Of a stretch of 64,000 nt of DNA, positions 40,086-42,760 are shown in pieces. The position numbers and the translations under genes were made by a program. The notes under the pieces were generated by a model that made no database searches, was not told the origin of the DNA, and saw only the letters and a program-made list of their open reading frames with translations. Positions within the stretch are counted from its first letter, which is position 1. Every line of letters begins with the position of its first letter. Location: NCBI GenBank assembly GCA_028286365.1, contig JAQBRR010000001.1, positions 310,001-374,000 of the forward strand, in the 5' to 3' direction. Source of the DNA: Candidatus Saccharimonadota bacterium (GTDB lineage Bacteria > Patescibacteriota > Saccharimonadia > Saccharimonadales > Saccharimonadaceae).

Positions 40086-41519
40086 ATGATCGAAAAAGCA
40101 AAGAACCATTGGTTCATTCTCGTCATTCTGGCTGCTGCGCAATTGATGGTCGTACTCGATTCATCAGTCGTAAACGTCGCTTTGCCAGCAGTGCAACATG
40201 CATTTAATTTAACATCGAGCGGTTTGCAGTGGGTCGTTACGGCTTATACACTGACATTCGGAGGCTTCCTATTATTTGGAGGTCGTGCAGCTGATTTATT
40301 TGGTCGTAAGAAAATGTTCCTTATCGGAATTACGTTATTTGTGCTCGCATCACTCATTGATGGAATGTCGCAGAACGGTACGATGTTGGTTGTTCTACGT
40401 GCGATTCAAGGATTGTCCGCAGCGCTAATGTCACCAGCAGCACTTTCGATTGTGCTTGTGACCTATCGAGAAGGTCATGAACGTAACACGGCACTTTCAA
40501 TTTGGGGTGCGGTTGGTGCTGGTGGAGCTGCTATTGGCGTGCTACTTGGTGGCGTCCTGACACAGTATCTTAACTGGCGCTGGAACTTCTTTATTAATAT
40601 TCCAATTGGCATCACGATCTTCACACTTGCATGGCGTCTACTACCTGCACATGAATCTGAGGAAGAGCACAGTGACCTAGACCTACCAGGCGCAATATCC
40701 GTAACTGGCGCGGCATTATTGCTTGTATCTGGAATTGCAAATGCACCAACAAATGGATGGCTGTCAGGTGCAACGCTTGCGTACTTTGTTGGTGCCGTTG
40801 TACTCTTAGCATTCTTTATCTTTAATGAGCGACGTGCGAAAAATCCACTTGTACCACTTGCGATATTCAAAAACCGTAATCTAACAGGTGCTAACTTAGT
40901 CCTATTTCCGGTTGTTGCAAGCATGTTCTCAACGTTCTTTTTCGGCTCACTGTATTTGCAAAATGTCCTACACTTTGATCCTGTCCAAACTGGACTGAGC
41001 TTCCTGATTACACCAGTGACTATTGCGATTACAGCAACCAATGTTCCAAGGCTCATCAAACGTATTGGCTTCAAGCCAGTATTAGTGGCTGGACCACTAT
41101 TTATTCTGACGGCGCTTCTCATTCTGGCGCACGTACCAGTTGACGGTAACTATTTTGTGAATGTTTTGCCTGCACTTATTCCACTAGGCATGGGAGCTGG
41201 AATGAGCTTTGTAAGTGGCACAATTGCAGCAACGTCTGGTGTTAAACCAAATCAATCAGGACTTGCCTCAGGACTCCTAAATACTTCACAGCAAATTGGT
41301 GGATCACTCGGACTAGCCGTTTTGACTGGTGTCGCATCAGCCGCAGCAACGAATTACGTCACGCACTTAACGTCTTTACCTACGAAACTCACCCCTTTAC
41401 TCGCTGAAGTAGAAGGTATGCACGGGGCATTTTATACAGGTGCGGGCATTGCGCTCGCTGCGTCGCTGATCGCGTTCATTGTCATCAAGGCACCAAAACG
41501 CCAGCCCCAAACTGTCTAG
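40086..41519 (+). CDS. MFS exporter, DHA2 (EmrB/QacA) type
   Basis: The 477-residue protein has about 14 hydrophobic helices. Motif A reads GGRAADLFGRKKMFLIG, the N-terminal motif is VVLDSSVVNVALPAV, and antiporter motif C is GAVGAGGAAIGVLLGG. DHA2 transporters export drugs or metabolites against protons. A clear Shine-Dalgarno AAGGGAG and a regulated promoter precede it. The neighbour MarR makes it an inducible efflux unit; the substrate is unknown. Confidence 0.95.
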   Translation: MIEKAKNHWFILVILAAAQLMVVLDSSVVNVALPAVQHAFNLTSSGLQWVVTAYTLTFGGFLLFGGRAADLFGRKKMFLIGITLFVLASLIDGMSQNGTMLVVLRAIQGLSAALMSPAALSIVLVTYREGHERNTALSIWGAVGAGGAAIGVLLGGVLTQYLNWRWNFFINIPIGITIFTLAWRLLPAHESEEEHSDLDLPGAISVTGAALLLVSGIANAPTNGWLSGATLAYFVGAVVLLAFFIFNERRAKNPLVPLAIFKNRNLTGANLVLFPVVASMFSTFFFGSLYLQNVLHFDPVQTGLSFLITPVTIAITATNVPRLIKRIGFKPVLVAGPLFILTALLILAHVPVDGNYFVNVLPALIPLGMGAGMSFVSGTIAATSGVKPNQSGLASGLLNTSQQIGGSLGLAVLTGVASAAATNYVTHLTSLPTKLTPLLAEVEGMHGAFYTGAGIALAASLIAFIVIKAPKRQPQTV

Positions 41520-41986
41520 TTAGGATAAATCATTGCCTGGTTACCAAGTTTACTTACAGCACTGGCTGGTAGTTCACCCGATTCGGCGCGTCTATAGTTT
41601 GCTAAGGCGAAGGTTTTCTCGCTCGACTGGTTTACGAATGCGAATGGGATACTTTCCTGCGTCGCAAGCTGAGTTATAGATTTTACAAGGCTGACTCCGA
41701 CGCCGTTGCCTCTAAATTCTGGGATAACAGTCAATGTGCCAATTTGACGAAAGGCGAGAGCGTTTTGATCTAGCAATGTGTCTTTTGCTCGTATGTACCC
41801 AGCGAATAAGTTCTTTGCCGTTAGTGCGACACGCGCATCCATAGCCTCTAGGATCTCCTCCATTGTTACAGGCACAAGCAGGGGATGTTCGTTTTCGTTG
41901 TCGATAATTGTGCTTAGCGAGACAAGGCGAGCGACCTCATTCTGTTTTTCTGTATCAAGTTGTGCAAAGTCGTATATTTCGATCAT
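41516..41986 (-). CDS. GNAT family N-acetyltransferase
   Basis: The 156-residue protein has motif A of the GNAT fold in IGTLTVIPEFRGNGVGVSLVKSI (acetyl-CoA pyrophosphate loop R-G-N-G-V-G) and a C-terminal FALANYRRAES helix. The substrate is unknown. Its ATG follows AGGAAAACATACC, and a 127-base structured leader with a terminator precedes it. It converges on the MFS gene with a 4-base overlap. The acyl acceptor might be the small molecule that controls the leader. Confidence 0.85.
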   Translation of the reverse strand: MIEIYDFAQLDTEKQNEVARLVSLSTIIDNENEHPLLVPVTMEEILEAMDARVALTAKNLFAGYIRAKDTLLDQNALAFRQIGTLTVIPEFRGNGVGVSLVKSITQLATQESIPFAFVNQSSEKTFALANYRRAESGELPASAVSKLGNQAMIYPN

Positions 41987-42113
41987 GGTATGTTTTCCTG
42001 TATGTAAGTTGTATAAAAATAACCCCTCTATTTCTATATAGAGGGGTGAGAAATCAAAAGATTAGTACTACCCCTAGGGGCGTGATCGGAATGAATACTG
42101 TGAACTAATCTTT
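41987..42113 (-). promoter_or_regulatory. Riboswitch-like leader of the GNAT gene
   Basis: Minus strand, 5' to 3': -10 TATAAA (42125-42120), then a closing stem AAAGATTAGT (42113-42104) with ACTAATCTTT (42066-42057) around a 37-base multiloop containing CCCCTAGGGG. Next comes an intrinsic terminator ACCCCTCTAT/ATAGAGGGGT (42047-42022) with TTATTTTTATAC, then the ribosome-binding site and ATG. AGGGGT of the domain can pair with ACCCCT of the terminator arm, so alternative folds exist. It matches no riboswitch class I know. Confidence 0.6.
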
Positions 42114-42191
42114 AACATATTTATAATATAACACGACTTTTGATCTTTGAGAAGCGATAAGTGATAAGTAACACATAACAAAAGCTTAATA

Positions 42192-42226
42192 TTAGCTGAG
42201 CAGAGGACGGACCTCTGCTCAGTTAA
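42192..42226. repeat. 15-bp inverted repeat upstream of the second GNAT gene
   Basis: TTAGCTGAGCAGAGG and CCTCTGCTCAGTTAA pair with one G-T across the loop ACGGA. No T-tract follows on either strand. It ends 32 bases before the -10 box at 42259. Confidence 0.6.
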
Positions 42227-42258
42227 TTCTCAGTTTGGACTTACAGTAAGTAAGGCTA

Positions 42259-42264
42259 TATAAT
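42259..42264 (+). promoter_or_regulatory. -10 box of the 42272 GNAT gene
   Basis: TATAAT, seven bases, ATG 42272. The alternative ATG 42263 lies inside the box, so 42272 is preferred. Confidence 0.5.
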
Positions 42265-42271
42265 GGCAGAT

Positions 42272-42760
42272 ATGGAAATAATAAATGAATCTATTACAGT
42301 CTTACGTGTTCCAATTGGTATACAGGTTCCGGCTTCGATGCAAGAAGCTCAGGATCGATTACTGAGCCGATTCGGCGATGTGCCAAAGGCCAAGAACCTC
42401 CAGGTAGTTATTGATAATCCTCGGAGTGCACTAATCTTTGCAATTACTGGCAAAGCGCCAGAATCAGATGAAGATTGGCAACAGATTCCAGCCGAAGCAT
42501 ATGCAGGAACAGTTACACTCCTAATGTTACAAACTACTGTCCACGATGTTGCGCATATTGATGAGATTGTCGTTGAGTCTGGCCACGAAGGCCAAGGTAT
42601 TGGTAAAAAACTTATGTTAAAGGCTGTTGAGATTGGCCATGAAAACGGCATTACGCGTTTTGATTTGACATCTCGTCCTGATAAGTTGGCCGCTCAGGCA
42701 TTGTACGAAAAGACAGGTTTTAAGAAACGCGAAACAAATAATTGGCGCTTTGAAGGTTAG
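42272..42760 (+). CDS. GNAT family N-acetyltransferase
   Basis: About 162 residues. The acetyl-CoA site is DEIVVESGHEGQGIGKKLMLKA (motif A, G-Q-G-I-G-K), followed by TSRPDKLAAQALYEKTGFKKRE, the standard end of small-molecule GNAT enzymes. It overlaps the convergent folK by four bases. It differs from the 41516 enzyme in both motifs and is probably not a recent duplicate. Substrate unknown. Confidence 0.88.
   Translation: MEIINESITVLRVPIGIQVPASMQEAQDRLLSRFGDVPKAKNLQVVIDNPRSALIFAITGKAPESDEDWQQIPAEAYAGTVTLLMLQTTVHDVAHIDEIVVESGHEGQGIGKKLMLKAVEIGHENGITRFDLTSRPDKLAAQALYEKTGFKKRETNNWRFEG

Follow-up and report, generated by a model that had tools for sequence, protein, structure and literature searches.

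The leader preceding a GNAT acetyltransferase gene on the minus strand of the window, by which the whole analysed stretch of 64,000 nucleotides is meant, is quite probably a ribosome-mediated, arginine-responsive transcription attenuator acting via charged tRNA-Arg, and would then be one of a group of arginine-gene switches, not described before, in the ultra-small Saccharibacteria. What sequence and comparison show is a short leader ORF, its arginine codons, two complementary segments, a terminator, matching anatomy ahead of argG genes of the same family and, in a wider family of leaders, covariation. Where the transcript starts, that the ORF is translated, that arginine is the signal and in which direction control runs are inferred, the analysis being computational throughout. 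A previous sequence-only reading had described the locus as a riboswitch-like leader. Its cis-acting switch between termination and read-through is very likely right, but the ligand-binding RNA domain that it took for the sensor is not upheld. The ribosome is the preferred sensor because an ORF is present, because relatives keep the ORF, the arginine codons and the antiterminator, and because the genes downstream of them are arginine genes.

Table 1. Features of the leader and of the regulated gene, in positions of the window.
Feature	Position	Strand	Remarks
-35-like TTCTCA, weak	42153-42148	-	17 nt spacer to -10; 9/12 matches overall
Extended -10 box TGtTATATT	42125..42133	-	hexamer TATATT 42130-42125; TG before second hexamer
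Leaderless leader ORF MLKISSQYSFRSRP	42074..42118	-	14 codons; ATG 42118-42116; stop TAG 42076-42074
10-bp stem, 5' arm	42104..42113	-	codons 2-5 of leader ORF
Putative sensing codons Arg CGA (42088-42086), Ser TCA, Arg CGC (42082-42080)	42080..42088	-	
Segment 1 GCCC	42078..42081	-	pairs with GGGT 42073-42070; protector hairpin around stop codon; minimum-energy fold
Segment 2 AGGGGT	42070..42075	-	antiterminator 5' half; exact complement of segment 3
10-bp stem, 3' arm	42057..42066	-	seen in sequence and fold
Segment 3 ACCCCT	42042..42047	-	common to antiterminator and terminator
Intrinsic terminator hairpin	42022..42047	-	42047-42038 with 42031-42022, then T-tract TATTTTTA
Ribosome-binding site AGGA	41996..41999	-	9 nt before GNAT start
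GNAT acetyltransferase gene, regulated gene	41516..41986	-	156 aa; Pfam FR47/Acetyltransf_1 (PF08445/PF00583)

Two overlapping -10 boxes are found upstream of the leader, the extended TGtTATATT, which is the better one, and TATAAA (42125-42120). The sequence-only reading had placed the transcript start at 42113 on the strength of TATAAA; that box is present, but the extended one would instead give a start near 42118, the A of the ATG of the leader ORF. It was because of the start set at 42113 that the ORF was missed, and the statement that the leader contains no ORF was wrong; its stop codon falls inside CCCCTAGGGG, in the interior of the 10-bp stem. The ATG follows the hexamer at a spacing of 6 nt. 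For 166 candidate starts in the window, 25 TATAAT-like boxes were counted at 6, 7 or 8 nt before the start, as against 0-6 at any other spacing, and since the spacing of 6-8 nt is so strongly enriched, leaderless starts are normal in this genome. At the divergent GNAT gene (42259-42272), where the annotated ATG is at 42263 and a TATAAT ends at 42264, the gene probably begins instead at its second ATG (42272), likewise leaderless. The two arginine codons of the leader ORF, which are non-adjacent and stand among its last four codons, align in position with the arginine runs FRRRLR, IRRRS, ARRRR and LRRRP of relatives. Leaderless ORFs ending in R-x-R-P-stop were matched 13 times in 393 genomes; only the one in the window is a leader, the others being gene starts as judged by eye.

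The structural elements described earlier were recovered: the 10-bp stem, in sequence and fold, the terminator with its T-tract, the ribosome-binding site and ATG of the GNAT gene, and the exact complementarity of AGGGGT to ACCCCT in the terminator arm. Together, these two segments have the look of the pair that does the switching. The terminator stem comprises 10 bp, five of them G-C, and excludes the antiterminator, with which it has a common segment (AGGGGT/ACCCCT/AGGGGT). The antiterminator has just 6 bp and a 22-nt loop, and the protector hairpin 1:2 has 4 bp in the window fold. Of 200 dinucleotide shuffles, 198 fold less well than the leader (z = -2.57). A perfect 10-bp stem was reached in one of 2000 shuffles of the part before the terminator; of 888 window tiles, however, 12 hold such a stem, and given that rate the stem alone is only suggestive. 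The arm was also considered as a repeated operator and rejected, six matches with at most one mismatch having been found in the window against 6.2 expected by chance. The earlier statements that the leader lacks a T-box and fits no known riboswitch class hold: RF00230 has no match at the leader, and Rfam yields nothing there at the gathering threshold, the best sub-threshold match (E = 1.6) being to an unrelated sRNA.

According to the proposed mechanism, transcription would begin at the AUG of the leaderless ORF. With ample arginyl-tRNA the ribosome would pass CGA-TCA-CGC to the UAG and cover AGGGGU, whereupon the terminator ACCCCUCUAU/AUAGAGGGGU would form and the GNAT gene would be off. When arginyl-tRNA is short, the ribosome would stop at the first arginine codon, masking CGCCCC and leaving AGGGGU free; pairing of the latter with ACCCCU would block the terminator, and the GNAT gene would be transcribed. 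If no ribosome were present, the 10-bp stem would hold segment 2 closed, resulting in termination. Folding of the RNA preceding the terminator 3' arm, with an assumed ribosome footprint of 15 nt before and 10 nt after, produced the 2:3 antiterminator in the window when the ribosome was masked at CGA (codon 11) and no 2:3 pairing when it was masked at codon 13 or the stop. The same pairing appeared in the relative G433 with the ribosome at codon 12 and partly at 13, and in G042 with it at codons 10-12. In the full-length window RNA the terminator wins at every ribosome position modelled; as it is the stable state, the decision would have to be kinetic, as in trp.

Leaders with the anatomy of the window's occur in its own family. 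A covariance model of 17 leaders, presented below, matches the argG leader of G042 (E = 0.002), a genome of that family, in which TATACT is followed after 6 nt by an ATG, the ORF reads MSYHQFADFRRRLRH, and GAGGGC pairs with GCCCTC of the terminator. Two more argG leader ORFs, MTYRISTSVIRRRSLS and MTYRHNIVIVARRRRSDSEG, were found in the same genus (G234 and G206), and G433, also of the window's family, has the ORF MYKTTKNFFQLRRRP before a homologous GNAT gene. The spacing between -10 box and ATG is 7 nt in G433 and 6 nt in the three argG leaders, as in the window. All five ORFs are 14-20 codons long (15-20 in the relatives alone) and carry arginine codons close to the stop; across the relatives, those of the wider family included, these form runs of two to four, as against the two separate ones in the window. 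A G-rich segment lies at or just after the stop (AGGGGT in the window, AGGGC in G433, GAGGGC in G042, GAGGGCT in both G234 and G206) and is in every case exactly complementary to the terminator 5' arm 22-39 nt further on, although the letters vary on both sides. Neither the 10-bp stem nor any conserved loop is retained among the relatives, which keep the arginine codons and the antiterminator. The compensatory changes among homologues by which the sequence-only reading was to be judged are seen in the antiterminator and terminator, but the 10-bp stem is confined to the window and to G433, in the latter with different letters (AAAACTAC/GTAGTTTT). The window leader has no close homologue, and covariation is therefore shown in the family of 17 leaders only, not for the window copy. 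Comparison of the leader DNA with 150 relatives gave a good match only for a dispersed repeat upstream of it, not for the leader. This repeat, a 25-bp inverted repeat at 42182-42236 with the core CTGAGCAGAGG/CCTCTGCTCAG, occurs in at least four more places in the window genome and several times in two other genomes of its genus, G023 and G010; it has no Rfam match and may be either a REP-like element or a shared bidirectional terminator.

The wider family was obtained by running a codon pattern for RRSxRIxG over 385 Saccharimonadales genomes. Of the 40 places found, 17 are leaders, each consisting of a short ORF with '..RRSxRI..', then a terminator, then a gene. Two features that the pattern did not select for are an in-frame ATG 27-42 nt upstream, present in all 17, and a TAnnnT box 4-10 nt before the ATG, present in 16. 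An antiterminator is formed between GGGRGYTGTY, at which the ORF ends, and the terminator 5' arm, with 95.9% of cells paired and five doubly changed pairs; none of 500 shuffles was as good, and slid controls reached 42-52%. In the terminator 93.3% of pair cells are paired (0/500 shuffles), and in the protector hairpin 1:2 the figure is 86%, with weak covariation. The gene directly downstream is argG in two cases (G444, G449), argH in three (G415, G422, G279) and a GNAT gene in eight, some of these GNATs being of the window GNAT's own subfamily; of the other four leaders, one (G118) precedes an unassigned protein and three lead into Asp/Glu racemase operons, in two cases by way of a small unassigned gene. 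The operons behind the leaders include ArgH-ArgF-ArgJ-ArgB-ArgD (G279), GNAT-ArgG-ArgH-ArgS (G120), ArgH-ArgG-ArgS (G415, G422), ArgG-ArgH (G449) and GNAT-kinase-ArgS (G334), where ArgD and some of the ArgG and ArgS assignments rest on sequence only. Rfam gave nothing for the leaders of 12 relatives. The covariance model R1 of the 17 leaders found no match in the window at E up to 10 and none in the window genome at E < 0.3; the window leader may be described as working like this family, as part of a subtype in its own family, and not as a member of the model. A protein of about 130 aa (GPSxxSLxGW) without a Pfam match follows an Arg-type leader at L176 (1292-1705) and L183, and at L176 it stands between the leader and an Asp/Glu racemase; it possibly represents a new arginine-regulated pathway.

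The window GNAT appears to belong with homologues bearing such arginine leaders. Short, arginine-rich leader ORFs with terminators precede the homologues in G339 (MFLLNTSIDNRRSSRIHGSCPCICL), G242 (MISNYSILVGIRRSYRITGGCS) and, more distantly related, G433, and another GNAT in G120 is preceded by the ORF MSKFTDNFEARRSSRIHGSWAFSC. The nearest relatives of the window protein, those of G339 and G242 among them, show 34-37% identity and occur in Saccharibacteria elsewhere in the class; the window protein is without their C-terminal CxxC...CCD motif. When the GNATs of G339 and G443 were used as queries, they matched only the window GNAT in its genome. With the window GNAT as query, a contig scan brought up no relative; with three GNATs it brought up only G242 and G339 themselves. 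A protein tree was not used, as it left the window gene unplaced and joined long branches oddly. The gene and its leader are absent from the other 27 of 28 genomes of the genus. Within the window genome of 850,738 bases, stretches totalling 844,581 bases (with small overlaps) were searched; ArgS, CarAB and one carbamoyltransferase-like protein are present, and queries with ArgG, ArgH, ArgJ, ArgB, ArgD and arginine deiminase had no match in this nearly complete sequence. The window GNAT stands alone in a genome without arginine biosynthesis, which counts against an arginine-responsive role, whereas GNAT homologues sit in arg operons.

The surroundings of the homologues show further regularities. 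In G042 an M20 deacylase and arginine deiminase come after the GNAT gene, which faces argG-argH. The deacylase after the GNAT is of the M20 type in G433 and AstE-like in G339, G242 and G443, in the last as judged from its sequence alone; the GNATs with the CxxC..CCD motif (L105, L106, L170 and L104, L107) are followed by a deacylase that is either AstE/AspA-like or M20. It looks as if one arginine-related metabolite were subject to paired acetylation and deacetylation. A further leader ORF, MYASSFVLRPRS, is possible before the GNAT of L050, in G265, after a TATAGT box and with no clear terminator. Another GNAT group in related genomes (L061 1031-1211, also L051, L060 and L063) has T-box-like leaders, that of L061 falling short of the RF00230 gathering score with 25.3 bits (E = 7e-4, from a short search); control of acetyltransferases by uncharged tRNA may have arisen here in two ways.

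Three other explanations of the window leader have to be weighed. It might have no regulatory role, being a weak terminator and a chance short ORF before a recently acquired gene, or the source of a small terminated RNA. The restriction of gene and leader to one species among the 28 genomes of the genus would agree with this, as would the rate at which two arginines fall among the last four codons by chance, 21 of 610 (3.4%) leaderless-looking short ORFs of the window's genome. On the other hand, a leaderless ORF, arginine codons, an exact 2:3 complement and a terminator are jointly unlikely by chance and match four leaders of the same family, and only six arrangements of leaderless ORF, terminator and gene were found in 464 kb of the genome, which makes a lack of regulation unlikely. 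The window has only two arginine codons and a 6-bp antiterminator, and its arginine ending alone is subject to this chance rate; the case for attenuation rests on the joint anatomy and the relatives.

Ribosomes are arrested at the motif R/K-x-R/K in the presence of macrolide-like drugs. The leader could accordingly encode a drug-sensing peptide, in which Arg-x-Arg stalls antibiotic-bound ribosomes and induces a resistance GNAT: RSR, RRR and RLR fit the motif, the regulated gene is an acetyltransferase with weak profile matches to aminoglycoside acetyltransferases, and an RLR leader has been described before hflX (PMC8632094). However, like leaders precede argG, argH and arg biosynthesis operons, which antibiotics should not induce, and runs of two to four arginine codons are better suited to codon sensing, so that this explanation is judged quite unlikely. 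A riboswitch, with 42113-42057 as the ligand-binding domain governing the terminator, would account for the stability of the fold, and the order of domain, linker and terminator resembles one; yet nothing in Rfam matches at gathering, the leader ORF crosses the domain, and relatives retain arginine codons and antiterminator but neither the 10-bp stem nor a conserved loop, all of which leaves it very improbable.

Beyond the single locus, arginine attenuation opens a broader view that is put forward only tentatively and is rather doubtful as a whole: clade-specific arginine attenuators with leaderless ORFs might constitute the main arginine regulon of Saccharibacteria, including acetyltransferases with paired deacylases (M20 or AstE-like), and the window species, devoid of arginine biosynthesis genes, might have kept one acetyltransferase under an arginine-starvation switch in order to scavenge or handle arginine, or precursors of it, that come from the host. 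If true, the acetyltransferase switch would be an undescribed step in the dependence of the parasite on its host. How genes are regulated in the Candidate Phyla Radiation has received little study. Arginine is important to these cells: in TM7x, ATP production and the interaction with the host are supported by the arginine deiminase system (PMC12815258). With argG, argH, whole arg operons and associated acetyltransferases under an arginine switch read by the ribosome, there would be a candidate regulon, testable in the genetically tractable TM7x or with reporters. Leader-peptide attenuation would thereby reach arginine biosynthesis as well as leaderless leader ORFs, and a GNAT family that cannot be placed from its sequence alone would gain a functional clue, namely arginine metabolism.

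No paper on arginine attenuation in Saccharibacteria or Patescibacteria, and no arginine attenuator of the present kind, was found in the open-licence papers searched; for arginine genes a 2005 survey recorded only T-boxes, in other species, and no attenuators (PMC1262725). The classical attenuators (proteobacterial trp, his, leu and pheA; actinobacterial trp and leuS, PMC1262725) resemble the Saccharibacteria leaders in having a short leader ORF that contains codons of the amino acid under control, segments pairing as 1:2, 2:3 and 3:4, an intrinsic terminator and, downstream, biosynthesis genes. The Saccharibacteria leaders are set apart from them by arginine as the amino acid, the leaderless leader ORF and the host lineage, and the window by having a lone GNAT gene downstream. 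Arginine is also sensed through ribosome pausing at consecutive arginine codons in orf34 of the Salmonella speF leader, which, however, has a Shine-Dalgarno ORF, works through Rho, unfolding of a ribosome-binding site and RNase G, and controls an ornithine decarboxylase gene (PMC6386406); here an intrinsic terminator and arginine genes take their place. The rbfL leader of Staphylococcus aureus likewise senses arginine limitation by a short ORF with arginine codons (RKR), but it occludes the rbf ribosome-binding site and represses under limitation, with no terminator switch (PMC13009471). T-box leaders of arginine genes are similar in answering to uncharged tRNA and in controlling a terminator; they bind the tRNA directly, whereas here the ribosome would be the reader. 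The kind of mechanism is old; what would be new, as far as checked, is that it reads arginine, uses a leaderless ORF, occurs in this lineage and serves this set of genes.
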